Shown here piece after piece: positions 6,254-56,423 of a DNA stretch of 64,000 nt. The stretch covers positions 117,351,699 through 117,415,698 of the forward strand of contig OZ038380.1 in assembly GCA_964036045.1 (NCBI GenBank), read 5' to 3'. Every line of letters starts with the position of its first letter. The stretch's first letter is position 1. Source of the stretch: Eutreptiella sp. 'Long Island Sound 2002' (taxonomy: Eukaryota; Euglenozoa; Euglenophyceae; Eutreptiales; Eutreptiaceae). The notes beneath the pieces are model-generated. The model saw only the letters and a program-made list of their open reading frames with translations. It did no database searches and had not been told where the DNA came from. The position numbers were made by a program, and so were the translations under genes.

Positions 6254-6382
6254 TCGCGCATCGGGACTGTGTGCGCGCTTTCCCTGGTGTCCCGTTTGCG
6301 TGCCGGTGCTGGTGTCCTGGGTGACATCATGTGTGGTGCGTGGTGGCGTGGTAAACTTGTCTCGGCTGCGCGGGCAGGTGGG

Positions 6383-11410: not shown

Positions 11411-11425
11411 CCAAAATGGACCAAG

Positions 11426-33436: not shown

Positions 33437-33455
33437 GGTAGGTAGGTAGGTATCT
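33437..33455. repeat. GGTA microsatellite 3' tail of LINE-C
   Basis: GGTAGGTAGGTAGGTA lies at the left edge, directly next to the target duplication. The truncated copy has AGGTAGGTA at 3241. On the sense strand the element ends in (TACC)n. Confidence 0.8.
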
Positions 33456-34017
33456 TCGGGAGCTCGGGATGCCTCCTTTGACATTGCAGGAAGAAGGTCT
33501 TACCAAGGGGACGTCCTGTCCCTCCCACTGCCCTATGTCAGGTGCCTCTTGAGCCGCTCCCGCATGTGCTTGGGAAGGCATTGTCGCGGCCACCCGGTCC
33601 ATGTGTCCCAGGTGGGAGGGTGTCCCCACATGTGTCCATGGGTAGGGCCACATGCCCCCTCCTTTGGGCGGCAGCTCTGGGGGGCTGCCCAGCCGTGTGG
33701 AGTATCTCTCACCACGAGGGGTATTGCTCCCGCTTGTCTACGGTACGACCGCCTCACCCTTGTGGCTTGAGTTGCGGGGCCACTCTGCTTGGCAGGTGAC
33801 CCCCTCCTGGACTGTGTACCGGCTCGCCTGTCACCGGTTGCTTCCATGGCTCCGGGTGACGTTTGCCATGGTCCTCGATGCAGCCTGGCCGGGCTCGGAC
33901 CAGTGGCTTTGGAGTACCGCTCCTGCCACTGGCCCGGTGGGTCGGCTGGGTCGCCCCAGTGCGTCCGACCCATGGGGTATTGGTTCTTTCCTGTCCCTCG
34001 GCTGCCCTACGTGTGTA

Positions 34018-34210
34018 TAGCGTCCTGGGCCGTTGGGCTCCTGTTCACCGGCGTGCCCGCGCGGTTTGCTGTGGTGCGTCTGCGGTGTCCTGGGCCAGCT
34101 GGCTCCTGTTCACCGGTGTGCCCGCTCGGTGTGTTGTGTTGCATGTGCGGTGTCCTGGGCCCCTGGGCTCCTGTTTACCGGTGTGCGTGCCGTGTGTGGT
34201 GTGCGTGTGT
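34018..34210. repeat. Three 65-bp-type units in the LINE-C 3' region
   Basis: Three copies of the unit containing GTCCTGGGCC and CTCCTGTTCACCGGTGTGC match the large array at 53054-54335 in the 5' region. The same unit type therefore stands at both ends of the element. A decayed version is seen in the truncated copy near 3765-3890. Confidence 0.75.
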
Positions 34211-34251
34211 CATGGGTGGATGTGTCCCTCTTCCTCCCCCCCTAATGTTCG

Positions 34252-34270
34252 TTTTTTTTTTTTTTTTTTT

Positions 34271-34308
<38 letters not shown>

Positions 34309-34330
34309 AAAAAAGAAAAAGAAAAAACAA
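34252..34330. repeat. Long T-run followed by A-rich stretch
   Basis: About 55 T residues with one G interruption, then GAAAAAAGAAAAAGAAAAAA. The two halves are complementary enough to fold back. A shorter version (T-run then GAAAAAA) is found at the 5' end near 56328. Confidence 0.8.
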
Positions 34331-34498
34331 AAAAGTGGAAAACAGAGGCGCGCGTACACTGCAGGCACAGGCATGGGCAGCTGGTGCGGCGGTGCTATAG
34401 TGTTGTGTCCTCTGGCGTGTGTCGCCGGTGCTGTGGCGGCGGTCGCGCCCCAGGGGTGCGGCTCGCGTGTCCTGATGTACATGGGTATGGGTCAGGGT

Positions 34499-34876
34499 GG
34501 GTTTGGTTAGGTGTCTCTTTGCTTCTGGTGCTGGCTGGTTAGGCGGCTGTGTGGGCTGTGGCTGTGGGCTGTGTCTACGCATTTCCCTCAGCAGGCCTGG
34601 TTTGGAGTCAAGGGTTGACGGTTTCGGGTTGTGGCTCGGGTTTGATTTGTGTTGGGGCTTCGGCCCGGTTAGGCTTGGGTCAGGGTGGGTTTGGTGAGGT
34701 GTTTCTTTGCTTCTGGTGCTGGCTGGTTAGGCGGCTGTGTGGGCTGTGGGTGTGGGCTGTGGTTGCGTTGTTCCCTCGGCGGGTTTGGTTAGGAGTCAAG
34801 GGTTAGCGGTTTCGGGGTGTGGCTCGGGTTTGATTTGTGCTTGTGTTCTGGCTCGGTTAGGCGGTTGCGCGGGGCC
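34499..34876. repeat. 188-bp tandem duplication in LINE-C 3' region
   Basis: The block with CTTCTGGTGCTGGCTGGTTA starts near 34500 and again near 34689. The truncated copy at 3240-8205 has only one such unit. Confidence 0.75.
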
Positions 34877-35588
34877 GGGCGTGTGGGTAGCGGCGTCCAT
34901 GGAGTCGTGCGCCCGAGGCGGGTGCGGGGTGGTGCGTGTGGGCCGGCCGTTGGCCGGTGGCCTCACTGGGAGTCCCACACGGAGGGGTCGGCGGGCGCGC
35001 CGGGGGCGTACGCAGCGTGCAGGTTGGGCAGCTGCGGGCGCACGTGCAGGGCGTCGGCGTGCCCGATGGGGACCTCACTGAGGACCGAGGGGTTGGCGGT
35101 GAGTAGTATGCGATGCCCGGGAGGGGTGGTGGTGGGGAGCGGGAGGATGTCCGCGGCCCGCGACGTGGGGGCGAACACGGCGTGGGTCGGGTGCGGCCCT
35201 GGGAGTGGTGCTGGGGGGAGCGGGACCATAGGACGGCGGTCTACTGTGAGGTGCCAAGCGCCGTGATGGTGGAGGAGCCGGACTAGGGCGATGCTGTGGC
35301 GCAGGGTGTGGGGCTGGGTGCTGGGCGGCGTGGGGACGTGCGGCGGGAGGGGGGGGGGGGCGGGGCGGTGGCGTGGGAGGGGGCATGGCGGAGGAGTGAC
35401 GTCAGTGACGTGTGTGTCGTGCTGAGGGTGGAGAGGAGCCCACGGTATCGGGCCCGGGTTCGGCGCCTTTGGGCGTAGTGGTGCTCGTTGTCGTGTGCGT
35501 TGGCTTCCTTCGGCGTCCGGTTTGTTTGGTGACTTCTGGGCGGGGCCTGGCGTGGCGCCCCGTGGTGGTGCTGTGCTGGATAACGGGG

Positions 35589-36995
35589 TTAGATGGCGGC
35601 GCCGCTGGCCGGGGGGTCAGGCGCGTCGTGTTGTGTGGCGCGCAGGGCTTCTGGGGTGTTGTGGGTGTCCCCGGTGTCGGTGCGCCGACGCTTGTGGGGT
35701 GGTGAGGGGGTGTGTGCCTGCGGGGCTGGGCTTTGGGTGATGTCCCACAGGCGGATGCCGTCTCGCCGTGCTTCCTGGAGGGTCTCCCGCAGGCGCCTGA
35801 GGACGTACGGGTGGTCCTGGGGCGCGGGGAGGTTGCGGGGGTGGACTCCCAGGGGGTGGAGCGCATCGGCCAGCATGGCTTCCCATGCGGCCTGCGGCAT
35901 CCACCCCCCCGCCGGCCGGAGGCGGCAGTTTTCCACCGACCCCTTGCGGGGCCGATGGACCAGGCCCTCGAGGGAGGGCTCTCCCCGGGCCCACTTCCGC
36001 AGCTCCCAGAGCTGCGTGTGGGTCCAGCGCTGCCACCACTGTTCCTGGGCGGGCCTGCGGTCTTGGGCGGAGGAGTGGGCGTGGGTGGGTGTGATGGGGT
36101 CGTGGGGGCCGGCGGCGGTGGCGGGCCTGGGGGATTCATCGTAGTCCTGTTCCGTGGGGGTGCGTGGGGAGTGGGGGTGCACGCGGATGTGGACCCGCGG
36201 GTGTGCGCGTACGGTCTCCGCCTCGGGGTTGGGCGGGGATTCGTGGCGGCGGCGGTAGTGGGGCATGCGTTGCATGTGGGCTGTCATCGGGGGCCGGTAG
36301 GGGGGCGTGGGCGCTGCTGGTGGACCCTGGGGCGGTCCGTGGGCCCGGGGTGCGGGCTTTGGGAGGTGGTGGGACGAGGCGCGCCGCGCTTCGGCCGCGG
36401 CGCGCTCCGCCATGAAGGTGGCGGCGGTGGTGTCGGTGACGGTGGGGGGGCGCCGCGCTGGGCGCTGCTGCCTTCGGGCCTGGGACGGCTGGGGCCGGAT
36501 GTCGTAGAGGACATCCTGGGGGGGCCGGGCCCGAGCTGCCGTCGTGGCGCCGGGTTTGGGCCTGGGCTTGGGCTTGGCTGCGGGCCGCCCTTTGGTGGCG
36601 GCCTTGGGCTTCGGCTGGGTCGTGGGCATGGGCTTCGCCGGGGCGTGGGCTTTGGCGGCGGTGGGGCTGCTCGCGGTGGGGGCGGGTTTGGAGGCCCGTT
36701 TGGGAGGTGTCCTCCGCGGCCTGGGGGGTGGAGTGCTGGATGAGGACGTGGTGGTGGTGGTGGTGGATGAGGTGGTCGTGGTGGTGGAGGTTGTGGAGTC
36801 GGAGGCGGAGGAGAGGGCCGCGGGAGACGGCGGAGGGTCCCGGGCCTCGGGGGCGGGCGTATGATGCTGGGTCCTGTAAGTAGCGAGAACGCGGGTGCAG
36901 GTTCGGGCATCGGGCGTGTGCGCGCGTTTTCCCTGGTGATCCGTGCGTGCTGGTGCTGGCGTGGCGGTGTTGTCTCGGCTGTGCGGGCACGTGGG
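35589..36995 (-). CDS. LINE-C ORF6, function unknown
   Basis: The minus-strand frame is open from 36995 to a TAA at 35589. It is in the same reading frame as ORF5, which stops at TAA 36996-36998. No start is certain; ATG at 36629 is one candidate. The first third is a Thr/Ser/Pro/Lys low-complexity region. Then come a His/Pro region, a Trp-rich helix (QWWQRWTHTQLWELRKWARG), and the block PAPQDHPYVLRRLRETLQEA, followed by a basic cluster (HKRRRTDTGD). The same end block is in the truncated copy. Trp-rich and basic features would suit nucleic-acid or protein binding, but no family is recognised. Confidence 0.55.
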   Translation of the reverse strand, partial: PTCPHSRDNTATPAPARTDHQGKRAHTPDARTCTRVLATYRTQHHTPAPEARDPPPSPAALSSASDSTTSTTTTTSSTTTTTTSSSSTPPPRPRRTPPKRASKPAPTASSPTAAKAHAPAKPMPTTQPKPKAATKGRPAAKPKPRPKPGATTAARARPPQDVLYDIRPQPSQARRQQRPARRPPTVTDTTAATFMAERAAAEARRASSHHLPKPAPRAHGPPQGPPAAPTPPYRPPMTAHMQRMPHYRRRHESPPNPEAETVRAHPRVHIRVHPHSPRTPTEQDYDESPRPATAAGPHDPITPTHAHSSAQDRRPAQEQWWQRWTHTQLWELRKWARGEPSLEGLVHRPRKGSVENCRLRPAGGWMPQAAWEAMLADALHPLGVHPRNLPAPQDHPYVLRRLRETLQEARRDGIRLWDITQSPAPQAHTPSPPHKRRRTDTGDTHNTPEALRATQHDAPDPPASGAAI

Positions 36996-39900
36996 TTACC
37001 CGGGGGGTGGCCATATCTGCTCCAGGACGCGGGGGTGTGTCTGCTGGAGGTAGTCGAGGGTCTCGAAGAAGCATCGCTGGATGCCGGGCATGTCCCCCTC
37101 TGTGAGGTGGGGGTAGTTTTGGGTGGGGGTGTGGGGGCCCGGCCATAGCAGCGCCATGAGGCGGGCTGCCACCATGTACGGGCATAGCTGTGGGGTGGTG
37201 GGGCGTGGGGGGGTGGGTCCCCCGCGGTTTGGGGGGGCTTCCATCTGCTGGGGGCGCAGCGTGACCACCCACACCCATCGGTCCGCGGGGATCCCCCAGG
37301 TCCGTTGGGTCCACTTGGCGAGGCAATACATCGCCCTACCAAGGCCCTGGTAACTGCTGCGGATGGAGAGCAGCGCGTCCAGGGATTCGGGTTCCCACGT
37401 GCCCCAGATGTGGGGGTCGTCCGGGTCTTCCCCCCTGGCGTACGTGTCGGGGCCCGGGTTGTGTGTGGGGGGGGTGTAGTCGGCGGGGAGGAGGGAGTCG
37501 GTGCCGTGTACCACCCAGTGGTCTGTGGGTGCGTGGTAGGTGGTGGTGGAGAGGGTGTAGTGCAGATTGTACATGAGGGTCATGTACGTGGAGGGGGCTG
37601 GCTGCTGCTCGTCGGGGGTGGGGATGTCCCCCGGGACGTGGTGCCGGAAGTTGCTTAGGGAGGCCATCCGGGCCACCCATGTTTCCCGCTCCCACTCCTT
37701 GGTGCTGTTGGGGGTGGCGTCGGGTGGGGGGTGGGCCATGTTGGGCTCGCGGTAGCGGGTGCGGCCCTGGGTGCTGTCCCGCTCTGGCACGGGGTGTCCG
37801 ACCAGGTGTCGCCCCCAGTCGATGGGGGGTACCCAGATCCGGCTCCCCGTGGGGGGCGGGCTCTCGCCGTCCGGGGTGGCGCGTGGGGGGCGCTCGTGTC
37901 GGGCGACGTGGAGGAAGGCGTCGAAGAGGAAGTCTCTGACGCCTTCCCCCAGGGTGGCCGCCTGGACCAGGGTGGCCGCCCGGATGGGGGTGCTGGTGCC
38001 GGAGGTGCGGAGGTACAGCACGACGTCCTGTTCCCCGACCCCCCGGAGGTGCTGCCGTACCGCTGCGGGGTTGTGCAGGGCGTAGGGCTCGGCCGGTGCG
38101 GCGACTGGTGGTGCGGGGTGTGATGGGGGGGGTGGTGTGGGTTGGGGGGGGTGGTCATCGTTGTCGCGCGCGGGGTCCGGTGATGGGGTCTCTTGCGGCG
38201 GCCGCGGGAGGGGGGATTCGCGGTGGCATGTGTCGGCGGGGGCATCGACATCGATTGGTTGGTGCTGGCTGCCGCGTGTTGTGTCCGTGGCCTGGTCTCG
38301 GGGGGGGGGCGGGGGGGGGTGGTGTGGGGGTGGCGCTGTTGGTGGTGGGGGGGGCGGGGGTGGGTGTTGTGCTGGCTGGGGGTCTGGGCGTCCCTGTGGG
38401 TCGTGTGGGTGTTGCGTGTGTGCGCCGTGTGGTCCTTGCGGTTCCTGACTGGTTGTGGTGCCGGGGTGTGGGTGGGAGGCGACCGCATGAGCCCCCGGGT
38501 GGGGCTGTGGTCCGTATGTGATGGGTGGCTGCTGGTGGATGGTGCTCGCTGGTATGGGGTGTGGGTGGGGGGGCTGTTGGTGGTGGTGGGGCGCCCCTAC
38601 TCGGTCCTGGTGTTGCCGGTGTGCGTGCGCGGCTCCTCGCGGGTCCATGGGGGTGTACCGTGGCTCGTATGCCGTGGGTCCGTGTAGCGGGGGCGGCGGG
38701 TGGTGCTGGACCGCGTGGTGGTGGTGTGGAGGGTGTGTCGGTTGTGTGTGGTATCCCGGCGTTGGTGGGTGTGGCGGCAGGGGCTGGTGGTGGTGGTACA
38801 CGTGATGGTGTGGTGCGGTGATGTGCGCTATGTGGGGTGGGTGGTTCGCGGGGCCTGGTTGTGCTGGGGCGTGGTGGGGATGTAGCTGGTGGGGGCCGCT
38901 GTAGTTTGGGGGCATTAGGGGGTAGGGGTTGGGAGGGACGGGGGCGCGGTGGTGGTGTTGGTGGTGCCATGTCCCCTCGCTCTGCGCGTACGGTGGTCTT
39001 GGCATGGTGTGGACGTGTGTGGGCGGTGGTGGCTGACTGGGCTGCAGGGTTTGGGTGCTGCGGTAAGGTGGTGGCGGTGGGCGTTGGTGGTGGTGGTGTT
39101 GCTGGTGTGCCCCGGGGGTCTGGGCGTGGGGCGGTGCGGTGTGGCTGGACCCGGGCCTTGGTCGGGGCGTCGCGCCCTGCTGGCGGGCGCGTTGGCGGGC
39201 CCCCTGGTGCCGGTGCCCCTTGGTCTTCTTGGCCTGGTGGGTGTCGGGGGCGGGTGAACCCCCCTGTCTCCGTGGGGGTGACGGGGAGCGGGCGCGCCAG
39301 CGGTGTGCCTCTTGGAGGCTCGTCTTGAGGCCTCTGACGTAGGCCTCCTGGTCCGTGAGGCTCATCCGCGTGGCGGTGGCCTCGTCGGGGGCGGCCAGGT
39401 GGGTGTCCCGGAAAGACGCCCAGCCCTCCGGGGGTGTCCGTTGTGTGGGGTGGGGGTGGTGTGCCGGGTAGAGGAGTGCGCTGAGGGGGTAAGGTGTTCC
39501 CTTCCGTCGGCCGAGGGCGTTTGCGAACCGGCGGCACGTGGCTCGGAGGTAGGCTGCTATCTCCTCTGGTGCCGTGTCGGCCCACGCTTCCGGCGTCAGG
39601 GCTGCTGCTTGGGGGGCCGGGAGTTGTGGGTCTGGGAGGTGTAGGTCTCGGTGGTGGAGGTATAGGGCGAGGAGGATGTGGCGGGCCGCCACGTTCAAGC
39701 CGCCTCCGCTGTGGCGTAGGGGTGGGCTGTGGGGGGGTAGGGGTGTGTTGCCCGTGGCCACGGCTATGGCCCATGCGTGGTCCGCCGCGTCCGCCACGTA
39801 GTACCCTCCCAGTTGGTCCCGGAGAGTGTCGGTGAGGTACCCGAAGAAGCTGGGGTGGCTGGCGGGGGGGGGTGCGGCTGGGGCCGCGGGCCGTTCGCGG

Positions 39901-40205
39901 TGGCGGGGGTTGAGGTCCCCGCAGTGGGGGCAGTGGGTGAGGCGGTGCGCGGCTCCCAGGCAGACCCAGTGGTCTGGGTTGCAGGGCAGGGCTGTCTGTG
40001 GTAGCCGCTGGCGAGCGCAGAGGGGGCATGCGGTGGCTGGTGGTTGGTGGTACCTGTGGACGGACGGCGGCGTGGGGGGATGGGGGCTGGTGGCGCGCGC
40101 ATGCTGGTGGGAGCGTGTGCGGTGCCTGTGGCGCCCGTGTGTGCTGTGCCAGTGCTGTGCCCGGTGGACGGTGTGTAGACGTGGTGGGGGTTCGGTGTTG
40201 GTATG
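36996..40205 (-). CDS. LINE-C ORF5 with RING-like zinc finger, function unknown
   Basis: The minus-strand frame is open from 40205 to TAA 36996. It lies in the same frame as RNase H (ORF4), separated by TGA 40221 and TGA 40206. No ATG occurs for the first 130 or so codons. The N-terminal part carries CPLCARQRLPQTALPC and then HWVCLGAAHRLTHCPHC (about 40025-39910), a C-x2-C...C-x3-H-x2-C...C-x2-C arrangement like a RING or related zinc finger. Next are a helical region (about 39797-39400), a long His/Pro/Gln-rich linker, and a conserved C-terminal domain (LGEGVRDFLFDAFLHVARHE; GLGRAMYCLAKWTQRTWGIP) that is also found in the truncated copy. A ubiquitin-ligase or nucleic-acid role is possible but unproven. 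Confidence 0.55.
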   Translation of the reverse strand, partial: HTNTEPPPRLHTVHRAQHWHSTHGRHRHRTRSHQHARATSPHPPTPPSVHRYHQPPATACPLCARQRLPQTALPCNPDHWVCLGAAHRLTHCPHCGDLNPRHRERPAAPAAPPPASHPSFFGYLTDTLRDQLGGYYVADAADHAWAIAVATGNTPLPPHSPPLRHSGGGLNVAARHILLALYLHHRDLHLPDPQLPAPQAAALTPEAWADTAPEEIAAYLRATCRRFANALGRRKGTPYPLSALLYPAHHPHPTQRTPPEGWASFRDTHLAAPDEATATRMSLTDQEAYVRGLKTSLQEAHRWRARSPSPPRRQGGSPAPDTHQAKKTKGHRHQGARQRARQQGATPRPRPGSSHTAPPHAQTPGAHQQHHHHQRPPPPPYRSTQTLQPSQPPPPTHVHTMPRPPYAQSEGTWHHQHHHRAPVPPNPYPLMPPNYSGPHQLHPHHAPAQPGPANHPPHIAHITAPHHHVYHHHQPLPPHPPTPGYHTQPTHPPHHHHAVQHHPPPPLHGPTAYEPRYTPMDPRGAAHAHRQHQDRVGAPHHHQQPPHPHPIPASTIHQQPPITYGPQPHPGAHAVASHPHPGTTTSQEPQGPHGAHTQHPHDPQGRPDPQPAQHPPPPPPPPTAPPPHHPPPPPPRDQATDTTRGSQHQPIDVDAPADTCHRESPLPRPPQETPSPDPARDNDDHPPQPTPPPPSHPAPPVAAPAEPYALHNPAAVRQHLRGVGEQDVVLYLRTSGTSTPIRAATLVQAATLGEGVRDFLFDAFLHVARHERPPRATPDGESPPPTGSRIWVPPIDWGRHLVGHPVPERDSTQGRTRYREPNMAHPPPDATPNSTKEWERETWVARMASLSNFRHHVPGDIPTPDEQQPAPSTYMTLMYNLHYTLSTTTYHAPTDHWVVHGTDSLLPADYTPPTHNPGPDTYARGEDPDDPHIWGTWEPESLDALLSIRSSYQGLGRAMYCLAKWTQRTWGIPADRWVWVVTLRPQQMEAPPNRGGPTPPRPTTPQLCPYMVAARLMALLWPGPHTPTQNYPHLTEGDMPGIQRCFFETLDYLQQTHPRVLEQIWPPPG

Positions 40206-40220
40206 TCACGGGGTAGGTTC

Positions 40221-42470
40221 TCATGGTTGGTAGAACAGGAGTTTGAGGAGGTGGGCTTGGTCTGTTGGTGGCAGGGTTGCCGCATGCTGCAGGTATTTGT
40301 GGGTGCGGTATGTGAGTTGCTCCGCCGTCTTGGCAACGGCCGTTCGCTGCATGTGTGCCGCCGTGGCCTGGGGGTCCTCCGCGTGGGTGCGTAGTAAGGT
40401 GTAGACGGCAGTGGGGACGAGTCCCCTGCGGACTGCCTCGAGCACCTCCGTCTGCTTGAGGACGGTGGTGAGTTGCTGGGTCGCCGGGGACTGCGCCAGC
40501 CATCCGGCGTGCTGTGCGATGGTGTGGGTTGGGTTCCAGTCTGTGAGGGTGTCCAGTCCCCTGTACAGGGAGCACGCCTTGAAGTGGTCCCACGTTTCTT
40601 CTTCCGCGTGGCTGCAGATGCATTTGGTGTGTCCTGCGGGGACGTGGATCGAGCGGCGCGTATACCATCGGTGGTATCGGGTGAGGAGGGGAAGTTGTTC
40701 GAGGGCGAGCTGGAGTCGGGGCTTTTGTAGGTGTGCTGGGAGGCTATCCGGGCGCAGGGCGGAGTAGTAGAGGGGGGTGTGGACGGAGTTTTCGAGGCGT
40801 CGGAGGAGTTCGGTGTTTGCTGGGTGGCCCAGTGTGGCGGCGAGTTGCTGGATGGGTGTGGGGTAGTGGTACTGCTTGTCTCGATCCGTGTACGGCGTGT
40901 CCTCGGGCATCCATTGGGGGGGCTGTGCGGCCAGGGGTATCGGGGGCAGGTGCTGCAGGTGGCTGTGGTGTGGGGTGTCCAGTCGCACGCGTTCGAGCCC
41001 TGGGGTGTGGTTGGTGTTCTGGTGTTTGGCCTGCGTGTCTGCGCGTCCATTGCCGTATGCGTAGCGGTGCGACTCCTGCTTGACGATGTGTAGGGCGTCC
41101 TGGGGGTGCATGCCCTTGAAGGCCATCCATAGTCCCAACGCTTGTGTGGTGAGGCCGGAATCGAGTGCTTTGTGGAGGGGTAGGTCCGCAAGGCGCCTGG
41201 TGAGGTGGATGTCGACCGTGGCGTCCACGACTACCCAGATGTTGCGGGGCCGGACCGTCGTGGGTGGCGGTGTGGCGGTGACGGCGTCTGCCATGGTGCG
41301 CAGTTCGCCGTGGGAGGACGCCCCAAAGATGGTGGTCCCGGTGTGGTGTTCCACGTGGAGGCCGTCCGCGCGCCGGGTGATGCGCACGGAGGCGCAACCG
41401 ACCGTGGGGGTGCGTTGCTGGGTGCCGGATGCGTCAGTGAAGTAGATGATGTCGGTGTCGCTGGGTATGGGTAGGCGGGCGATTGCTGTGGGGTGATAGA
41501 CGTAGATGGGGTTCCCCTGGGTGGTTCTGGCGGTGATTTGCGTGGGTTGCAGTAGTGGCGCTGCAGAGACGCCTATTCCCTGGGTGATGATGGCCTGGGC
41601 TCGTGGGGTGAGGCGGAGGAGGCCCCTGTCTGGGCGTCCCTGGGTGATGTACGCGTACATCAGGTGGAAGAGGTATCCCGTATTGGGGTGGAATTTCTGG
41701 CACGTGATGGTCTGTCGCCGCTCCGTGTCGTCCTTGTCGCCGCGGAGGGTGGGGCATTTGTGCTGTAGGGGGCGCATGGGTGCCTCCTGAGGTCCTGCGC
41801 GGTGTGGGTCGCAGCGGTCGTACTCCATGGCTACGCTGTCCGGGTCTGCCTGCTCGTTGGTGAACGTCCATGTCGCCGTGGGTGTTCGGGTCCAGGCTAC
41901 GTGCGCCGGGTGGTCCGGGGGTACCGTGTGAAACCAGGGGGAGAGCCATGCCTGCTGGTCGGCGGTGGCGGCGGCGGTGGGGGTGTGGTAGTGGGTGGAG
42001 ATGAGGTGCAGCAGGGGCCACGGCGTGTCGAGGGCTGCCGGGCCGCAGTGCCAGCACGTGCGTGGTATGCCCTGGTCACTGTGTCTGACTGGTGGTACAT
42101 CGGTCTCCGGTGCATTGTGTTTGGGGATGGACCAGGGGGCATGGTGTCGCTGGACGGTGCGGGTTACATGTTTGTGGCTGTTTGGTGCTAGCAGCAGGAT
42201 GGTGGGTGGTGTCCAGCCTTCGGCTGACGGGGTGGGCTCCCCCTGCGTCGTGCCGCCGTCGTTGGGGGTCTCGTGTTCGCTCAGGCGGGGCCGGGGGTGC
42301 TGGCGCTGGAAGGCTGTGTACGCCGTGTCGATGTCCTTGGGCCCCGGCATGTCGCGCCCTGCCTTCGTAGCACATGCGCGGAGGTACGCTTGGAAGACGT
42401 GGCGTGCCGGCCATTGTGGGTCGGAAAGGAACAGGGCGTGGTGGGCGTCGCATTGGGCCATGATCTGCAT
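40221..42470 (-). CDS. LINE-C ORF4: RNase H and C-terminal zinc knuckle
   Basis: ATG 42470 lies 15 bases after the RT stop (TAA 42486-42488) and in the same frame. The N-terminal 330 residues are His/Pro-rich with scattered Cys/His pairs and no clear domain. RNase H spans about residues 340-480: IIYFTDASGTQQR (Asp), FGASSHGELRTMADAV (Glu), IWVVVDATVDIHL (Asp), HIVKQESHRYAYGNGRADTQ (final Asp). A zinc knuckle follows (CICSHAEEETWDHFKACSLY; C-x-C...H-x3-C) and then a helical end, LKLLFYQP. It would degrade element RNA during second-strand synthesis. RNase H outside the RT ORF is unusual for a LINE. Confidence 0.85.
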   Translation of the reverse strand: MQIMAQCDAHHALFLSDPQWPARHVFQAYLRACATKAGRDMPGPKDIDTAYTAFQRQHPRPRLSEHETPNDGGTTQGEPTPSAEGWTPPTILLLAPNSHKHVTRTVQRHHAPWSIPKHNAPETDVPPVRHSDQGIPRTCWHCGPAALDTPWPLLHLISTHYHTPTAAATADQQAWLSPWFHTVPPDHPAHVAWTRTPTATWTFTNEQADPDSVAMEYDRCDPHRAGPQEAPMRPLQHKCPTLRGDKDDTERRQTITCQKFHPNTGYLFHLMYAYITQGRPDRGLLRLTPRAQAIITQGIGVSAAPLLQPTQITARTTQGNPIYVYHPTAIARLPIPSDTDIIYFTDASGTQQRTPTVGCASVRITRRADGLHVEHHTGTTIFGASSHGELRTMADAVTATPPPTTVRPRNIWVVVDATVDIHLTRRLADLPLHKALDSGLTTQALGLWMAFKGMHPQDALHIVKQESHRYAYGNGRADTQAKHQNTNHTPGLERVRLDTPHHSHLQHLPPIPLAAQPPQWMPEDTPYTDRDKQYHYPTPIQQLAATLGHPANTELLRRLENSVHTPLYYSALRPDSLPAHLQKPRLQLALEQLPLLTRYHRWYTRRSIHVPAGHTKCICSHAEEETWDHFKACSLYRGLDTLTDWNPTHTIAQHAGWLAQSPATQQLTTVLKQTEVLEAVRRGLVPTAVYTLLRTHAEDPQATAAHMQRTAVAKTAEQLTYRTHKYLQHAATLPPTDQAHLLKLLFYQP

Positions 42471-42485
42471 CTGTGTTGGGGTGAT

Positions 42486-45400
42486 TTACACTATGGTGAT
42501 GGTGGCCCCTACGAGGCGCAGGGTGTCCACCTCGCCTGCCGGGTGTCGGTGGATGTCGGTGTGTGTGGCCACGAGTGGCCCCTGTTGGTCGCAGTGGTGG
42601 TTTGTCAGGATGGCGTGCGTGTGGTGCGGTAGGAGGAGTTGTAGCTGGGCCCAGATGCCAGCGCCCACGGGGGTGGAGACGCCGTGTTGTGCCAGTATCC
42701 ACCGGGGGCAGGTGTTGCGGGCCATTTGCGCTTCTTTTATGCGTATGGCCGCCGCCTCGCGAACTTCTGGTTGGTGGTTGTGTGTTACCCTGTGTAGGAG
42801 GTGTGCTGCGTGTTTGGCATAGGCCATGTCGACCAGGGCGCCCGTATTGTCTCCGTAGTAGCGCCAGTGGGCCATCATGGCCTCCTTGGGGAAAGACGTG
42901 GGCCAGCCTCCGTGTTGCGCCCATGCCTTCGTCACTTGTTGTCGAGCGTGGCGTAGTGCGTCTTGGGGGCGCGGGAGGTGCAGGGCTTGGTACCCGATGG
43001 CCGCGTTGAGCACTGCTTCCATGAAGTACGCCAGGCCCTGCGTAGACAGGAGGTCCCCCCTGGCAATTTGGGTTAGCCGGGCGAGGCGCTCTTCTAGCTT
43101 GCTTGGGAGTGTGATGTGGTGGTGCCGCGTGGCCTGTGTGACTCCCAGGTGGACTGTGGTGTCTTCCAGGTGCAGGGGTTCGCCTTTCCGGATGTGGGGG
43201 GTGGGGGTCTCGGCGTCGGCCAGCCCGACCGATTTGCGGGGGTGCACTAGGAGCTGGTGGGCGTCCAGGTAGGTTGTGGTGAGTTGGAGAATGGCGGACG
43301 CTTGTTCGGTGGTCGTTGGTAGCCCTGCGTTCTCAGGGTCGCGGTGGCGGGTGGCTGTAGTGAGGAGGTTGTCATCTGCGAAGTTGATGAGGGGGGACCG
43401 TAGCGGGTATGGGGCGTACCCCGGGTATACCCGTGCTAGCTCGAATGCCAGTGGCAGGGTGACGAGGAGGTAGAGGAAGGGGCCTTCGGCGCCTCCCTGG
43501 GGGACCCCGCTGTCTGTGCCGGTCCAGGGGGTGAGGCCCGCGGCCGTGATGACGGCGTAGAGTCGGGTTTGGATGTACCCGGTCATGAAGGACAGGAATG
43601 GGAGGCCCATGGCATCCCATACCTCCGTGAGGAGCCGGTGTGGGGCGTGGGGGAACGCGCCTTGGACATCGAGGGAGGCGATGATCATCTCGTACGGGTT
43701 CATGTCCAGTGCGGTGTCCTGGAGGAAGATGGCCTCGTGGGGGGACCTGCCGGCCATGGCCCCCCACATGCTGGCGGGCACGTGGGCGAAGACCGCTGGC
43801 GCGATGCGGCCAAGGATGAGCGTCCACACCAGCTTGACCTCGGTGGTGGCGCATACTATGGGCCGCCAGTTCCCCGGCTGCGCCCAGTCCCCCTTTTTGT
43901 AGAGGGGGTGGACCAGGTTGGCCCACTCAGGGGGGATGGGCGTGGCGCCCGTGACGATGTCCCACAGGCGGGCTGCCAGGCGGCGTTTGATGGGCAGGGT
44001 GAGACGTTGGTATGCTTCGGCCGGCAAACCGTCGACGCCGGGTACGACCCCCTTCTTCAGGCGGTCCAGGGCGCGCTGCAGTTCTGAGATGCTGAAGGGG
44101 TCGTGTTCGATGGCGCGCCGCTGTTCCCGGTTGAAGACCCTGGGCACATGCTCGCGGATGGTGTTTCTGGTGTGGGGGTCGAGCTCGGGGAGGGCGTCCC
44201 CGTGTTGCGCCTGGAAGCTGTCCAGGACTGCCTGGAGGACGGCGTCGGGGTCATTGGTGAGGCCTCCTTCGGGGGTGCGGACCGCGTGGATGGTACGGCG
44301 CCCCGTGTCCTCCAGGACGCGGCTGACGTACCGCAGGGACTTGTACGGCGTGTCGTTTCTGCCGTATCTTTCGCGTTCCTGGGCTGCTGCCGCTATGCGG
44401 TGGGCGTGCCATTCCTGGAGTTGGTGGCGGCGGGTGGTGAGGAGCGCACGGAGGTGGGCGTCCCGGTCCCGTGCCTCCGGTGTGCTGGGGCGTAGCAGGG
44501 TGGCGAGTTCCCCTTTCGTGGTCCAGATGTCATGGACGAGTTGCTGGAGGGTGAGGTCCGGTGGTGCTCCCGTGTGGTTGGTGTCACGCTCCATGCCGCA
44601 TGCTTGTGCCGCCCGGCGCATGGCGGTGGTGAGTGTCGGTGCACCCGGGCGGCGTAGGATGGCGTGTAGGGCCCTGTTATACCTGTGCCAGGCGCCGTGG
44701 TCGTCCTCGGCCGGGAACTGCAGTGTGGGTGGGAGGGTGTCGTCTGGCAGGGTGGCTGCGGGTGGGGGTAGGTCGGGGATGATGAGGTCGATGTAGAGGG
44801 GCCGGTGGCCCGTGCCTGTGGGCGGGAGGTCCCCGTAGGCTGCTTCGTGGACGCGCACCGTGGTTGGGTCCCCGTAGCACGTGTCGATGCGGGATGGGTG
44901 GGTGCCGGCTTGGTGGGGGTAATGGGAGGGTGTGCCGGTGAGCCCTGCCGTGAGGTCGGTGAGGCCCAGCTGGTGCATGGCGTCCCGGACAGCTATGTCG
45001 GTGGCTGTGGGTGGGCCGGTGCGGTCGTCGTCGGTGGGAGCGGCGTTTAGGTCGCCTATGATGATGGTGGGTGCCAGGAGGGAGAGTCGGCGGTACGCCA
45101 GGCTCAGGGTGTCCAGGAAGTCCTTGGTCTCCTCCCCGAACGGGACGTGCGTGAGCAGCACGTTTAGCTGCCATCCGGGCCCCACGCACTCGTACGCCCC
45201 GAGGCGACCATCCACTCCGAGGTCGGGGTGGGCATGTACCGTGACCGATGTCTTGTGGTAGGGGGGTACCCCCCGTTCCCAGTGGGCGTGATATTTGTTC
45301 CCCTCTGGGTCCAGGATTGGTGCTGGTTCGGGTTGGTCCGCTTTGCGGAGGGCTTGCTCCAGGAACCCCAGGAGGTCTGCGCCTTGGGGGTGCGGCCCGG

Positions 45401-46586: not shown

Positions 46587-46592
46587 GGCGTC

Positions 46593-49500
46593 TCAGCTGA
46601 CGAGCTGGATGGGGCGGACCGCAGGGTGGGTCTTCGGAGGTGCTCGCATGTTGAGGATTTGGTGGATGTCCTCGGCGGTGGGGCCCGTGTCGGGGGCGTC
46701 CTGCGCTGCTTGGGCTAGAGGTGGGGAGGGGCGGTCCTCCCAGAGGCGGGATGCGGACGCCGTGGCGTACATGGCTGCGATCAAAACGTGTTCCGTCAGC
46801 CCTTCCACCATGAGGTGGTTTTCCCCCTCCAGGTCTCGGGGGATGGCGGCTTCCGCCTTTAGGGTGAGGAGTGCGATGGCGCGTTTGGGTCCTGGTGTGG
46901 CGTGTGTCGGCTCATCTGGCGGGCGTCCGTCGGATGGGGTGTGGGGGGGGCGCTTCTGGAAGGGGGATGGTCCCACCGCCAGGTGCTCGACAAGGTGTAG
47001 TGGTATGGCGTGGTGGCGGTCCGCCGCGGGTAGGAGGTAGGGGTGTGGGTCTCCGGGCACCGTGCCGAGGAATATGCCCCCCCTGTAGGTAGGGGTGGGC
47101 AGGGGTTGCTGCAGAGCGCCTGCGCATGGTAGCGCGCACCGAGGGTTGCAGTGGGTGCATGGGGCTGTTATGGGGTGCGGTACCGCGTACACGGTGAAGG
47201 GCCCTACCGCTCGCTGGATGTGGCGGGGGATGATGTTGCGGAGGTCCGCCACCCGTGCCGTGCGGCCTTCGCCATAGTATATCCAGAGCGTGTCCTCCAG
47301 TGCCATTTTGGGGCGTAGTTTGCGAGCCAGTAGGTTCAAGGTGCTTTTGTGGGTGGCCTCGGTGATGGTGCCGGGCCCAGCGTTAATGCGTGGGAGCAGG
47401 TGGCTTTGGTGTTGTGCTGCGGCCCGTCTGCGGGCGGTGTGGAGGGCGGTGCTGTCGGCGGGAGGGGGCGCGTGGTGGGTGGGCCTTTTGCGTGGGGTCG
47501 GGGCGACGTGTAGGGGGTGCTTCCATGCCGGGCGTGGGTGGTGTTGCGGTGGCTGGAGGCCAGGGTAGGTGGTGAAGGTGTATACGGTGATGGGGGAGCG
47601 CTCATGCGTGGCCTGGAGGTAGTAGTGGTCGCGACCCGTGTTGTGGGTGACGATGACGTTGGGCGTTGGTATGTCGTAGTGGAGCGCGGTATTGGGGAGT
47701 TGTTTGGTGATGCGTGCCGTCGGGTCCCCTGTTTTGGGGGCGGTGTCGTGGGGCACGAGGATGTGGACTGCCCACGCATCGTGGGCGGGGAGGTCGAGGT
47801 CCGGTAGGGTGGGATGAATGGGGCGTCCCCGGAAGTGTGCGAAAGCTGGGTTGTGGCGTGCCGCCGTTTCCTTGATGATGGACGGTGCCCATTGGGGTGG
47901 CGCCCCAATTTGCTGGGCCATGGCGGCGACGGCGCGGGCGATCGCCGTGAGGTCTGGGCCGATGCCAGGCTGGTCTGCCGGTGGCTGCAGGCCCCCTTCT
48001 GGTGCGGGGTGGTGCCACCATAGGGTGTAGCCCTTTTGTGTGTTATCGTGGGGGGTGTGCACGAGGCCTTGGTGGTTGGAGATGGCGGTCTTGAGGGCTT
48101 CCGCTGCCTCGCGGTGGAGGGTGCGCGTGTAGGCCCAGACTCCGGTGGGGGGGGCCGCCCCGGTGTGGGATTCGGCCGTGGTGGGGGCCGGTTCGAGGGT
48201 GTGACTGGTGAGGGAGGGTCTGTGCAGCCCTTCGTGCAGGGAGGCGCACACGTGTGCCCACCTGTCCGCCCATCCCTGTTGGGCGCTTCCTGTGTCTGCT
48301 CCTGTGGGTAGTCGCACGATGACCACGTGCCAGGGGTGTGACCCCGGTATTACGGTGGGGGGTGTGGTGTGCTCGTGAGCGTGTAGCCATACTGCGGTGT
48401 CCGCGTTCGCCGTCACGTAGTCCTCTCCTTCCGCTGTGTGGACGTTTTCGACGGCGGCCTCTCCCTCCAGGGTGAGGAGGAGGTGTGTGCCGGGGGGCTG
48501 CGCGTGCGTCTCTGCGTCCCGGAGCCACAGGTACGTGAGCGCCACGGCGCCGGGGAGGATTTCCCCCCACGTGAAGGTGCCTTCGGGTGATGCCCACTGC
48601 AGGGGCAGTGTGCGGCGTCCCCGCGAGTCGTTGGTGGCGTGGTAGTCGTGGGAGAGGTGACGTTTGGTGAGCCGGTGCGGCATGCGTTCGGTGGTGGCCG
48701 TGGGGGGGTCCCAATTACATTCCTCCGGTGGGGGTGCGTCTGCGTCGTCCTCCTGGGGCTGGGCCAGCGGCAGCGCCTGTGCATTGGGTGCGGCGTCGGG
48801 TAATCCGCTGTGCGTGAGGGTGTAGAAGCCCTCGGGGGTGAGTTGGAGGACGATGTCCCACTTCGCCGTTTGCTCTGGGGACCACTGGTGGGGCCCGTCC
48901 TGCGGTCGGTGGAGGGTGACCTGGTGGCCCCATCTCCAGCTGTGGTAGGCGAAGAGGCTGAGGACGGTGTCTTGCTCCGGGTCCTCCACGCTTTCCATGT
49001 ATGCCGTCATGTCGGTGACGTCGACGGCGTACTCGTCCTCCCATTCTTGTGTGGGGGTGCCTGGAGGGGGGGGGGCGGTGGTGTACCCGTGGAGTCCTGG
49101 CCCCGTGACGTCGGGCAGGTCGCGCTCGAGTGACGCCCGGTACTCGGCGGGCCCGTTGCTGGCTTCGTGGGTGGGGTGGTGGCGCCGCAGGGCGTTGGAC
49201 AGGTGCGTCCAGGGCGCCCTCTCGCGGGGGGGGGGGCGCGGGGGGGCATTTTGCGGGTTGGGGTCTGCGGGGCTGCTTGCTGTGGGCTCGAGCTCCGGCG
49301 GGGTGAGGTCCATATGATGCTCCGTGTCCTCCGTGTGTTGGAGTTCCAGTTCTAGCAGGCTGTCGATGTCCAGGGCCATGGGGTCATCTTGCGTGTTCAC
49401 GTGCTGGGGTGTTGCGTCATGGCACGGTGGGCGTGTGATGCTGGTGTTCGGGGCATGTGCGGCGGCCGGTGCGGGGTCGTGCGTCGGGGGAGGCGCGCCG

Positions 49501-52112: not shown

Positions 52113-52303
52113 TGGTGGCGGGTGGGCGCGCTTGGTGGTGGTGCTGGTGTGTCCTTGCGGGTGGTGTTGGGTGTGGTACCATTGGGCGTGTGGTTTGCGA
52201 TAACTGAGCGCTCACCCCTCCGGGTGGCGCGGGCCCGGTGGTCCGGTAGTCCGTCCGGCAGGTGGCGCCGGGTGCTCATGCGTCCCTCCGGACGGCGGCT
52301 GCT
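52113..52303. repeat. 190-bp block, copy 1
   Basis: Repeated at 54341-54530 and partly at 54650-54760. The constant core is CCGTCCGGCAGGTGGCGCCG, followed by GGTGCTCA. It adjoins the 64-bp array here and interrupts the 65-bp array in the other copies. Confidence 0.8.
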
Positions 52304-52560
52304 CCGTAGCCGGCAGGGGCTGGGTTCACTGCCGGGCGCACACACGTCCCTCCGGACGGCGGCTGTTTCGTAGCCGGCAGGGGCTGGGTTCACTGCCGGG
52401 CGCACACACGTCCATCCGGACGGCGGCTGTTTCGTAGCCGGCAGGGGCTGGGTTCACTGCCGGGCGCACACACGTCCATCCGGACGGCGGCTGGTTCGTA
52501 GCCGGCAGGGGCTGGGTTCACTGCCGGGCGCACACACGTCCATCCGGACGGCGGCTGTCG
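52270..52560. repeat. 64-bp tandem array, about 4.5 units
   Basis: Unit with CGGACGGCGGCTGTTTCGTA and GGGCTGGGTTCACTGCCGGG, nearly identical between units; the first units have CCTCC where later ones have CATCC. Confidence 0.9.
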
Positions 52561-53053
52561 CGCTGTGGGGACTGCGGGGCTTGGACTTGTTCTTGGCGGC
52601 TCGTTCGTCGTCGGGTGTGGGTGTTTGCCGTGGTGGTGTCGTGTTTTTGTGCCGTGGTGCGTGCTGGCGTGCGGTGCTGCGTGTGTGCCCTGCTTGGCCT
52701 GTGTGTGGCGCGCGCTCCTTGCCCGGGCGTGCTGCTGCGCAGGCGCGGGGACACACCCTCTCTCTGGCGGGCCCGTTTGGCTCCATGGCGGGCCCTGTTG
52801 GTGCCCGGCTGTGGCCCGGCGCGCGGCAGTGGGGTGTGTGCTCGTTGGGGGGGGGGGGGTTCGGACCCCTCTTCTCGCTTTCCCCGCCTTGTCCCTCTGT
52901 CCCTCTTCGCCGGCCTGCCCTGCCTGCCCTCCCTCTTCGTACCCGCTGGGTTGGCCTTGGCCGGTCGGTTGGTCTTGGCGGTCTGACATTGTGTTTCTTT
53001 CCTGCAGGGCGGCGTGGGCTGGGTTCGTTTTGGGGGCGGGTTGCTCGTGTGGT

Positions 53054-54335
53054 GTGTCGCGCCGCTTGGCTCCTGTTCACCGGTGTGCACGCTCCGTGTG
53101 TGGTGTCGTGTGTACGGTGTCCTGGGCCTCCCGGCTCCTGTTCACCGGTGTGCACGCCTTGCGTGTGGTGTCGCGTGTATGGCGTCCTGGGCCTCCTGGC
53201 TCCTGTTCACCGGTGTGCACGCCCTGCGTGTGGTGTCGCGTGTACGGCGTCCTGGGCCTCCCGGCCCCTGTTCACCGGTGCGCACGCTCTGCGTGTGGCG
53301 TTGCGTGTACGGCGTCCTGGGCCTCCCGGCTCCTGTTCACCGGCGTGCACGCTCTGCGTGTGGTGTTGCGTGTACGGCGTCCTGGGCCTCCCGGCTCCTG
53401 TTCACCGGTGTGCACGCCCTGCGTGTGGCGTCGCGTGTACGGCGCCCTGGGCCTCCCGGCTCCTGTTCACCGGTGCGCACGCTCTGCGTGTGGCGTTGCG
53501 TGTACGGCGTCCTGGGCCTCCCGGCTCCTGTTCACCGGTGTGCACGCCCTGCGTGTGGTGTCGTGTGTACGGTGTCCTGGGCCTCCCGGCTCCTGTTCAC
53601 CGGTGTGCACGCCTTGCGTGTGGTGTCGCGTGTACGGCGTCCTGGGCCTCCCGGCTCCTGTTCACCGGTGTGCACGCCCTGTGTGTGGTGTCGCGTGTAC
53701 GGCGTCCTGGGCCTCCCGGCCCCTGTTCACCGGTGCGCACGCTCTGCGTGTGGCGTTGCGTGTACGGCGTCCTGGGCCTCCCGGCTCCTGTTCACCGGCG
53801 TGCACGCTCTGCGTGTGGTGTTGCGTGTGCGGCGTCCTGGGCCTCCCGGCTCCTGTTCACCGGTGTGCACGCCCTGCGTGTGGTGTCGCGTGTACGGCGT
53901 ACTGGGCCTCCCGGCTCCTGTTCACCGGTGCGCACGCTCTGCGTGTGGCGTTGCGCGTACGGCGTCCTGGGCCTCCCGGCTCCTGTTCACCGGTGTGCCC
54001 GCTCTGTGTGTGGTGTTGCGTGTACGGCGTCCTGGGCCTCCCGGCTCCTGTGCGCCGGTGCGCACGCTCTGCGTGTGGTGTTGCGTGTACGGCGTCCTGG
54101 GCCTCCTGGCTCCTGTTTACCGGTGTGCACGCTCTGTGTGTGGTGTCGCGTGTACGGCGTCCTGGGCCTCACGGCTCCTGTTCACCGGTGTGCACGCCCT
54201 GTGTGTGGTGTTGCGTGTACGGTGCCCTGGGCTCCCTGGCTCCTGTTCACCGGTGCGCACGCCCTGCGTGTGGTGTGGTGCGTACGGTGTCCTGGGCCTC
54301 CCGGCTCCTGTTCACCGGTGTGTTCGCTCGGTGTG
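53054..54335. repeat. 65-bp tandem array, about 20 units
   Basis: The start of GTCCTGGGCC recurs at 53119, 53184, 53249 and 53314, exactly 65 bp apart, and onward. Units vary at a few positions (GTGTGCACGC / GTGCGCACGC; GTGTCGCG / GTGTTGCG). Further units stand at 54530-55060 and near 55205-55240 between copies of the 190-bp block. 65 is not a multiple of three and no frame has a stop, so the plus strand is open in all three frames. Confidence 0.95.
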
Positions 54336-54340
54336 GGTGT

Positions 54341-54760
54341 GTGGTGGCGGGTGGGCGTGCTTGGTGGCGGTGTCGGTGTGTCCTTGCGGGTGGTGTTGGG
54401 TGTGGTACCATCGGGCGTGTGGTTTGCGTTTATTGAGCACTCACCCCTCCGGGTGGCGCGGGCCCGGTGGTCCGGTAGCCCGTCCGGCAGGTGGCGCCGG
54501 GTGCTCACGCGTCCCTCCGGACGGCGGCGTGGTGTTGCGTGTACGGCGTCCTGGGCCCCCCGGCTCCTGTTCACCGGTGTGCACGCTCTGCGTGTACGGT
54601 GTCCTCGGCCTCCCGGCCCCTGTTCACCGGTGCGCACGCCCTGCGTGTGGTGTTGCGTTTACTGGGCACTCACCCCTCCGGGTGGCGCGGGCCCGGTGGT
54701 CCGGTAGCCCGTCCGGCAGGTGGCGCCGGGTGCTCACGCGTCCCTCCGGACGGCGGCGTG
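54341..54760. repeat. 190-bp block, copy 2 and partial copy 3
   Basis: Matches 52113-52303; the third copy (54650-54760) lacks the first part. 65-bp units separate them. Confidence 0.8.
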
Positions 54761-55384
54761 GTGTTGCGTGTACGGCGTCCTGGGCCTCCCGGCTCCTGTT
54801 CACCGGTGTGCACGCTCTGCGTGTACGGTGTCCTGGGCCTTCCGGCTCCTGTTCACCGGTGTGCACGCTCTGTGTGCGTGTGCGGTGTCCTGGGCCTCCC
54901 GGCTCCTGTTCACCGGTGTGCACGCTTCGTGTGTGGTGGTGCGTGTACGGCGTCCTGGGCCTCCCGGCTCCCGTTCACCGGTGTGCACGCTCTGTGTGTG
55001 GTGTTGTGTGTACGGCGTCCTGGGCCTCCCGGCTCGTGTTCACCGGTGTGCACGCCCCGTGCGTGGTGTTGCGTGTGGCCCTTTTGCGCCTGCGTGGTGC
55101 GTGTTGTGTTGTGCGTGTGGTGTCCTGGGACACTTGGTTCGTGTTCCCTGGTGTCGCGGTGTGTTGCGGTGTGTGTGTGGTGTCCGGTGTGCGGCGGTGC
55201 GTGTGCGGTGTCCTGGGCCTCCCGGCCCCTGTTCACCGGTGCGCGTGCTCGGTGTGTTGCGTGGTGTGTGCGGCGTGGGTGTGGGTGCGTGCTCGCGTGT
55301 GCCATACCGTTGCAGCATTTTTCTTTACACATTGCTTCCTATGGCGTCTTACTTATTTTCCCCGTCCTGGACTCGTTGATTTTG

Positions 55385-56232
55385 GCGACGCCCAAGAGTA
55401 AGCGTGTCTTAATGCATGCATGGCGGTGTATGCTTTTTACGCGTTGGTTTGTGGTTCGCATTTTGCGACGCCCAAGAGTAGGCGTGTTTGCTTAATGCAT
55501 TCATGGCATGCTACTTATTCTTTATGCCTTGGACTCTTTGTTTTTTGCGACGCCCAAGAGTAAGCGTGTCTTAATGTTTGCATGGCGGCATATGCTACTT
55601 AACCGTTTGTTTGCGGACTCTTTGTTTTTTGCGACGCCCAAGAGTAAGCGTGTATTAATACCCACAAAGGTGGGTGGGGAGGTACATGGAGAAGGACAAA
55701 GGAAGAGAAAGGGTGCGAGACGGTGGGTATGGCGTGTTAGTATACTATTTTTCGGTTTTTTCGCGTTGCTCGCGACGCGTTTTTCTTTACCTATACGGCG
55801 TGTTAGAGGGTGAGAGGCATGGTGTTGTATTCCTAAGCTCGGTACGGTGCTTACGGCGTCTACTATTCACCTCTTTGTATTTTGCGACGCCCAAGAGTAG
55901 GCGTGTTTGTTTAATGCATTCATGACATGCTACTTATTGCTTATGTCTTGGACTCTTTGTTTTTTGCGACGCCCAAGAGTAAGCGTGTCTTAATGCATGT
56001 ATGGCGGCATATGCTACTCACCCTTTGGTGTGTGGACTCTTTGTATTTTGCGACGCCCAAGAGTAGGCGTGTGTGTTTTGTTTTGGGGCGCGCACAAGTC
56101 CCTATCGCCTAGGGCACGCACTTTGCTAGGTGGTTTGGGGCAAGCAACGCTCAGCTTCTCCGCCGTCGCGACTCTATTGTTCGTCTTTTTCGGTGAGCGT
56201 CCTATATTTTGCGACCTCGCCAAACAGCGGCG
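55385..56232. repeat. 82-bp-spaced hairpin units at LINE-C 5' end
   Basis: GCGACGCCCAAGAGTARGCG begins at 55385, 55465, 55547, 55631, 55884, 55966 and 56050. A degenerate copy is near 56211. Spacings are 80, 82, 84, 253, 82, 84 and 161, close to multiples of 80-84. ACGCC...GGCGT (or ACGC...GCGT) can pair around a CAAGAGTA-type loop. TTAATGCAT lies downstream in several units. Confidence 0.9.
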
Positions 56233-56410
56233 TAAAATTGTTGGGGGGGTTTCTGAGGTCGGAAAAGACGATTTTTCGCTTTATTTCTGCTGGCGGTGCG
56301 TCTTTTTCTCGTCATTTTATTTATTTTTTTTTTGAAAAAACCCATTGTCGGCACCGTTTGGGGGGGGGGTGGACCCAGTCGACGTGGTGGGTACGGTGAC
56401 TGTCCCGAGT

Positions 56411-56423
56411 GGTCCGGGAATGA
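56411..56423. repeat. Right target-site duplication of LINE-C (13 bp)
   Basis: Exact copy of 33424-33436. Gag coding resumes in the same frame across it. Confidence 0.9.

Follow-up and report, generated by a model that had tools for sequence, protein, structure and literature searches.

A stretch of 64,000 nucleotides (the window) from the genome of Eutreptiella sp. 'Long Island Sound 2002' (assembly GCA_964036045.1, contig OZ038380.1; C3:117351699-117415698 in the coordinates used here) carries an insert that is probably a single, recently active giant long interspersed nuclear element (LINE) of the apurinic/apyrimidinic endonuclease (APE) type, about 23 kb long, whose enzyme would be made by translational readthrough from the first into the second of its open reading frames (ORFs). 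An earlier note, made from the sequence of the window, had proposed a giant non-long terminal repeat (non-LTR) retrotransposon of about 23 kb at this place, and a search of the genome (2.28 Gb, 2,205 contigs) has borne this out, as 12 of 13 copies with paired ends are full-length and have independent flanks. The window element represents what we call family A, and two sets of relatives are referred to as families B (P0041, P0073) and C (P0044, P0047). The insert is read from the minus strand, with its 5′ end at 56410, its 3′ end at 33437 and a (TACC)n tail on that strand.

A single element of about 23 kb

The element, its ends and a second copy in the window are as follows.

33437..56410, minus strand: giant LINE of family A, 22,974 bp, based on paired copies; this copy has two private nonsense codons
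56323..56410, minus strand: variant 5′ end of 88 nt, common to C3:115837210 (L010) only, among 40 scored places
52267..56072, minus strand: 5′ untranslated region (UTR), containing tandemly repeated units of 84, 65 and 64 bp (Tandem Repeats Finder)
33437..35588, minus strand: 3′ UTR, with 65-bp repeats (34010-34208), an A-rich stretch of 56 nt (34252-34307), a conserved last 539 nt and the (TACC)n tail
3233..8133, minus strand: second copy, 5′-truncated and diverged, 76-88% identical in pieces to 33436-38796, with the same 3′ boundary

The 3′ end of the family is sharply defined. With positions 33437-33975 as the query, all 40 scored places, the window included, were 100% identical over 539 bp, and all 30 fetched 3′ loci showed the (TACC)n end followed by differing flanks. 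The part encoding the endonuclease and the reverse transcriptase (RT) was likewise found at 99-100% identity in 40/40 scored places. For the 5′ end, 40 of 4,037 first-look candidates were scored with the query 55600-56410, and most of the matches begin at query base 89 or 102, which means that the element is common from about 56322 inward. A common 5′ start, GTCGCGCGATCGCAGCAG or a one-base variant of it, was present with unrelated flank before it in 17 of the 30 fetched 5′ loci, and lies about 65 nt inside the end of the window copy. The 5′ end of the window copy is thus atypical.

Sixteen of the 30 5′ loci could be joined to a 3′ stretch, and setting aside three of these that have no 3′ end (L012, L027 and L030) leaves 13 pairs. 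Twelve of the 13 paired copies, which have independent flanks and include the window copy, span 22,957-23,372 bp, and one spans 16,315 bp. Since 12 of 13 copies share this length at independent sites, 23 kb is the length of the family and not the outcome of nested elements. The earlier note had looked to full-length copies with the same ends elsewhere in the genome as the check on its proposal; both ends do recur about 23 kb apart, with duplications in 5 of the 13 pairs. It had also considered that other copies might end well before 56410, for which the shortfall proved to be just about 65 nt, or that separate elements might lie inside 50-56 kb, where the 12 paired copies keep the full 23 kb.

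The idea that the insert is a composite, in which further elements have nested in the ends of a shorter LINE, draws on the tandem repeats and low-complexity stretches at both ends of the insert, on the internal A-rich tract and on the 65-bp unit found in both UTRs. However, the paired copies with independent flanks are equal in length within about 2% in 12 of 13 cases, and the 5′ and 3′ ends recur precisely, so that a composite of nested elements is ruled out in the main and has in our view next to no chance of being correct. The 65-bp unit stands in the same orientation in the 3′ UTR (34010-34208) and the 5′ UTR (53068-55076, where there are about 20 copies). It is the only sequence common to the two UTRs, and self-comparison of the element revealed no terminal direct repeat. 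The region of 84-bp repeats shows variable repetition in other copies. Tandem 5′ repeats serve as promoter units in mouse L1, and the repeats described here may have the same role.

The second, 5′-truncated copy that the earlier note had seen in the window is indeed present at 3233-8133, and a clear target duplication, looked for around it, was not found.

Insertion site and target duplications

33424..33436, strand not applicable: target-site duplication of 13 bp bordering the element on its 3′ side, identical to 56411-56423
56411..56423, strand not applicable: target-site duplication on the 5′ side of the element, exact 13-bp match to 33424-33436

The 13-bp sequence GGTCCGGGAATGA, claimed earlier as a target duplication, occurs exactly twice in the window by exact match, at these two positions. 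Exact duplications of at least 11 bp (11-15 bp) were found in five of the 13 paired copies, namely the window copy (13 bp), L013 (13 bp), L016 (11 bp), L020 (11 bp) and L021 (15 bp). As a control, none of 156 mismatched pairs of flanks had a match of at least 11 bp, the longest being 10 bp. Eight of the 13 paired copies lack a clear duplication, which counts against our interpretation; in these the target may have lost a few bases, the additions at the 5′ end may be longer or the duplication may have decayed. In L013, L016, L020 and L021, 14-30 nt belonging to neither element nor target stand between the duplication and the common 5′ start, the value for L016 being uncertain because this locus is repetitive. 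These extra nucleotides are possibly non-templated or template-jump additions.

The target appears to be another retrotransposon. Direct repeats at 29139-30201 and 62939-64000, 96.6% identical, surround a Ty3-type pol (59556-62546, plus strand) with RT, RNase H and integrase by Pfam. They are probably the two LTRs of an LTR retrotransposon into whose gag the giant LINE has inserted. The earlier note had the interrupted gag continuing in frame across the insert, and the frame does agree between the two flanks; the sequence obtained by joining them, though, contains stop codons, one at the end of the target duplication and another 17 codons on. Because of these two stops gag is not an intact reading at the joined site, and a clean gag reading across the target is ruled out.

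Genes of the element

45546..49379, minus strand: ORF1, from the first Met in line with the relative P0057 to the UGA at 45548-45546; internal private stop at 46593-46595
40221..45545, minus strand: ORF2, about 1,770 codons, with AP-type endonuclease, RT, RNase H and a Cys/His motif; private stop at 42486-42488
44813..45467, minus strand: endonuclease motif span (INILN to TGHRPL), from motif places; the Pfam match covers residues 102-238
43224..43901, minus strand: RT core (Pfam RVT_1, residues 549-774), with FADDN at 43385
41028..41441, minus strand: RNase H motifs (FTDAS, HGELR, VVDAT, H...GNGRAD), from motif places and weak fold matches
36996..40205, minus strand: ORF3, of which family B has kept the C-terminal part (27% identity to L103, E 1.5e-17)
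35589..36995, minus strand: ORF4, C-terminal domain with a family B relative (35% identity, E 3.6e-6 against L103)

The window copy has its large stop-to-stop ORFs, between 51851 and 35589, all in a single frame, and the earlier note had counted six of them. Reading the same places in other copies showed that the stop at 46593 is open in 3/3 and the stop at 42486 open in 4/4, so both are private to the window copy, and copies open at these places exist in family A. The stops at 50169, 45546, 40221 and 40206 were kept in 3/3 other copies. Six ORFs is therefore an overcount: the borders at 46593 and 42486 are ruled out as real and represent private nonsense codons. The stop at 36996, which separates ORF3 from ORF4, was read in the window copy only. 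The low-complexity open frame at 50169-51851, whose downstream stop is among those kept in 3/3 copies, gave no evidence of coding. The predicted genes of family A are accordingly ORF1 and ORF2 and then, unusually, ORF3 and ORF4 behind ORF2.

ORF2 identifies the class of the element. Pfam recognises in it RVT_1 (8.2e-16) and Exo_endo_phos (6.3e-6, 26.5 bits against a cut-off of 24.5), the latter also in the relative P0001 (1.2e-6), and the best matches by sequence in PDB are human L1 ORF2 chains (E 1.6e-4). RNase H gave no Pfam match in ORF2. The best fold matches of a low-confidence model of this part (mean predicted local distance difference test score (pLDDT) 44.9) are retroviral RT and RNase H chains, and since the best E is 1.6e-3, with none below E 0.001, the model is used as weak support only. 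Thus, the element has an RT of the LINE kind, an AP-type endonuclease before it and RNase H motifs after it, together with short target duplications at independent sites, a repeat tail and no LTRs, and by these tested features it is an APE-type LINE. The C-terminal part of ORF2 had no match in Pfam, no model dedicated to a restriction-like endonuclease being among those used.

ORF1 has relatives of 98% (P0054), 80-84% (P0056/P0057) and 35-36% identity (P0070-P0074), and no Pfam domain. By-eye readings of ORF1 as OTU-like or oxygenase-like found no Pfam match and are not claimed, and an AlphaFold model was discarded (mean pLDDT 35.4). ORF3 and ORF4 had no match to Pfam at E 10 or better; two RING-type matches recorded for the whole of ORF3, at E 2.6 and 6.9, are far below the cut-off. 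A His-Asp-Cys pattern in ORF3, by eye Ulp1-like, met with no Pfam match and one PDB profile match at E 1.4, and is likewise not claimed. Differences between the two copies of the window over 38900-35601 fall on codon positions 1, 2 and 3 in the numbers 199, 214 and 302, the third position being the most frequent. An ORF elsewhere in the window (20931-22277, minus strand) ends in a part (GWTAGEVAELARYVKWAG) that by eye is similar to the domain in ORF4 of families A and B.

The ORF1–ORF2 junction

45517..45548, minus strand: candidate type II readthrough signal, UGA-CGG with a stem-loop (stem 45544-45517), conserved in family B

ORF1 ends in UGA, and what follows, C-GGGGC-CA-GGGCCG-GACA-CGGCCC-GCCCC, is predicted to form a stem of 11 bp that a 2-nt bulge interrupts. 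The junction of family B reads UGA-C-GGGGC-AA-GGGCCG, with a longer loop and an unchanged 3′ arm, and in both families the inner stem starts 8 nt after the stop. Counted from the UGA, 16 of 17 nt are identical between A and B, as compared with 17-22 of 60 in the ungapped 60-nt blocks around; no off-diagonal pair of 17-mers with at least 15/17 matches was found within about 250 nt on each side of the junction. UGA-CGG was present at the end of ORF1 in all five family A copies read (window, L085, L089, L093 and L104) and in the one family B copy read; L101, a locus chosen for the family B junction, lies beyond a truncated copy. The same six nucleotides occur on the element strand at four places (49009, 48415, 46798 and 45548). 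When 1,807 windows from the ORF region are ordered by folding energy, the 36-nt window at the stop comes second, and the stem of family B exceeds composition shuffles (z -3.61, 0/200 as good).

Coding similarity between the families also resumes at the stop. In frame 0 directly after it, the proteins of A and B resemble each other (RGxGR...PAPxEA...LNxPAVTY) to a degree reached in 0/2,000 shuffles, and frame 2 shows no similarity (625/2,000 shuffles as good). The first in-frame Met after the stop is codon 48 in family A (45404) and codon 46 in family B. By eye and by the spacing usual in AP endonucleases, LNxPAVTY (LNAPGALY in family C) is like the strand with the catalytic Asn, and (L/Q)EQ(A/G)L downstream like the strand with the catalytic Glu. 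If this reading of the strands is right, a start at the AUG at 45404 would lose the first endonuclease strand.

Because similarity resumes directly after the stop and no AUG follows for 45-47 codons, ORF2 is likely to be made as an ORF1-ORF2 fusion, as judged from comparison of the two families. Programmed readthrough at UGA-CGG (45548-45546) would yield this fusion, so that ORF2 would not start at an AUG of its own, and the stem-loop 3′ of the UGA would stimulate it. A minority of ribosomes would then produce the enzyme and the remainder ORF1 protein alone. For retrotransposition, a single long RNA would be the template of target-primed reverse transcription, with the UACC tail as the place of initiation. 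Type II readthrough is described as taking place at a UGA with CGG or CUA next to it, in most cases ahead of a stem-loop that begins about 8 nt after the stop, and as serving the replicases of alphaviruses, tobraviruses, pecluviruses, furoviruses and pomoviruses (PMC3542737).

Several observations speak against this interpretation. The 52-nt window at the stop ranks only 42 of 1,807 by folding energy, and in family A the stem does not stand out from shuffles of its own composition (z -1.39, 17/200 as good). Since the stem arms are identical between A and B, there is no compensatory change to attest the fold. Frame 1 after the stop also shows some similarity between the families (34/2,000 shuffles as good). 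Finally, a Met lies 45-47 codons downstream in both families, which leaves room for reinitiation.

In the latter case, ribosomes would terminate at the ORF1 stop and reinitiate, or enter internally, at an AUG about 140 nt past it, and the hairpin would serve reinitiation. Such a mechanism has been described for SART1, where a structure downstream of the stop was needed, and proposed for L1 (PMC5972666). Yet stop and AUG do not overlap in the giant LINE, the frame-0 protein similarity sets in immediately behind the stop, the Asn-bearing first strand of the endonuclease, recognised by eye, precedes the AUG, and UGA-CGG is itself conserved, all of which makes reinitiation rather unlikely. Conserved codons right after a UGA with no AUG would likewise be explained by other ways of bypassing the stop: selenocysteine or another reassignment of UGA, removal of the stop by splicing or RNA editing, or initiation past the stop at a non-AUG codon. 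The combination of UGA-CGG and stem-loop is, however, a published context of readthrough (PMC3542737), and we consider these other ways very improbable. A review of recoding mentions frameshifting in HeT-A (PMC5009743).

Readthrough at the UGA is in our view the most likely way in which ORF2 is expressed. A literature search on readthrough together with non-LTR retrotransposons gave no report of LINE readthrough, judged by title or abstract start, and to our knowledge readthrough has not been described for a LINE. If true, a readthrough cassette in a LINE would be a further route to set how much enzyme is made relative to ORF1 protein, in convergence with plus-strand RNA viruses.

Families and clade placement

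Database relatives of ORF2 are P0001 (1,727 aa), which is 99% identical to it, and P0041 of family B, with 55% over the RT. P0041 is 50% identical to P0001 end to end; it has a 100% match in the same genome, and all 27 listed places are open over 1,782 codons, one with an internal stop. ORF2 of family C is 43% identical to that of the window. Family B is like A in an ORF2 that aligns end to end, in the UGA-CGG stem and in relatives of ORF1, ORF3 and ORF4, the C-terminal domains of ORF3 and ORF4 being present at the family B locus C6:87522200-87526250. It differs in that it has no Cys-rich N-terminal part of ORF3 and in that its ORF3 frame differs from the ORF2 frame. At the locus L054 (C4:78796618-78800156), a family A copy immediately interrupts an ORF2 of family B (88% to P0041) and is read from the other strand, which is a nesting of giant LINE families.

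In an RT tree built with FastTree, the three families group together (support 1.000) on a long branch that is separate from the other LINEs sampled in the genome and from the metagenomic proteins P0052 and P0053; the tree is small, has no references from named clades and includes one all-gap row (L007). Database relatives outside this kind of genome do not exceed about 31% identity, over part of the RT.

It could be that the element belongs to a named clade of RNase H-bearing LINEs (the I group, plant L1, Proto1 or Dualen/RandI) and is just unusually long. RNase H is reported from these groups (PMC4640811), and the PDB matches by sequence are human L1 ORF2 chains. There is, on the other hand, the lack of any closer outside relative, as well as the long branch in the small tree. 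For Dualen/RandI in particular, a second, restriction-like endonuclease besides APE is described (PMC4640811), and none was recognised in the giant LINE, though none was specifically modelled. We regard membership in a named clade as a serious possibility, a little short of an even chance. On balance, it seems somewhat probable that these giant LINEs, of which one genome has at least three families, are a lineage of their own with several genes and a plan resembling that of a virus, in which the enzyme would be made only as a readthrough fusion and conserved genes follow the polymerase.

Other sequences of the window and of the assembly

Two further ORFs of the window belong to LINEs. The first, at 27962-29191 (minus strand), resembles in one region the RNase H part of ORF2 of the giant LINE (about 30% identity) and is a remnant of a further related family. 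Another LINE RT (RVT_1 1.4e-33) is encoded at 12079-13443 (plus strand), between direct repeats of 716 bp, 98.6% identical, at 11423-12137 and 15797-16511.

Elsewhere in the assembly, contig C297 shows by eye a neighbourhood of a bacterial flagellar-type ATPase and is likely a contaminant. Contig C2205 carries a plastid-type atpA, whose best PDB match is the spinach chloroplast chain 1fx0, so that the host has a plastid and is probably a green eukaryote. C17, C22 and C8 have matches of equal or similar score to that of the C2205 atpA, and these may be plastid DNA in nuclear contigs.

Comparison with known systems

LINEs usually measure 4-8 kb, a shortness that is commonly put down to incomplete reverse transcription. 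Many copies of 23 kb imply a very processive enzyme or a special way of completing the 5′ end, and with conserved ORFs behind the polymerase one may ask how a LINE benefits from additional genes. A search for giant LINEs found none in titles or in the opening lines of abstracts, which does not prove that there are none; within the literature searched, the size with many full-length copies, the conserved ORFs behind ORF2 and the candidate readthrough cassette appear to be new.

The giant LINE shares with the RNase H-bearing APE LINEs (the I group and plant L1, with Dualen/RandI also considered) the order AP-type endonuclease, RT and RNase H in ORF2, and is alike in its short target duplications, 5′-truncated copies and repeat tail. 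It differs from them in its length of about 23 kb, in the conserved ORF3 and ORF4 behind ORF2 and in the UGA-CGG junction, and also in FADDN/FADDT at the RT active site and in TGH/AGH in the endonuclease, where SDH is usual in LINEs.

With SART1 and L1 it has in common a two-ORF RNA with the enzyme ORF downstream and, in the case of SART1, a structure 3′ of the stop (PMC5972666). Unlike in these elements, there is no overlapping stop and start, and the coding similarity starts before the first AUG. The type II readthrough viruses resemble the giant LINE in UGA-CGG, in an inner stem 8 nt after the stop and in a polymerase in frame downstream (PMC3542737). In contrast to those viruses, the host of the putative signal is a retrotransposon, and its predicted outer stem begins 1 nt after the stop.

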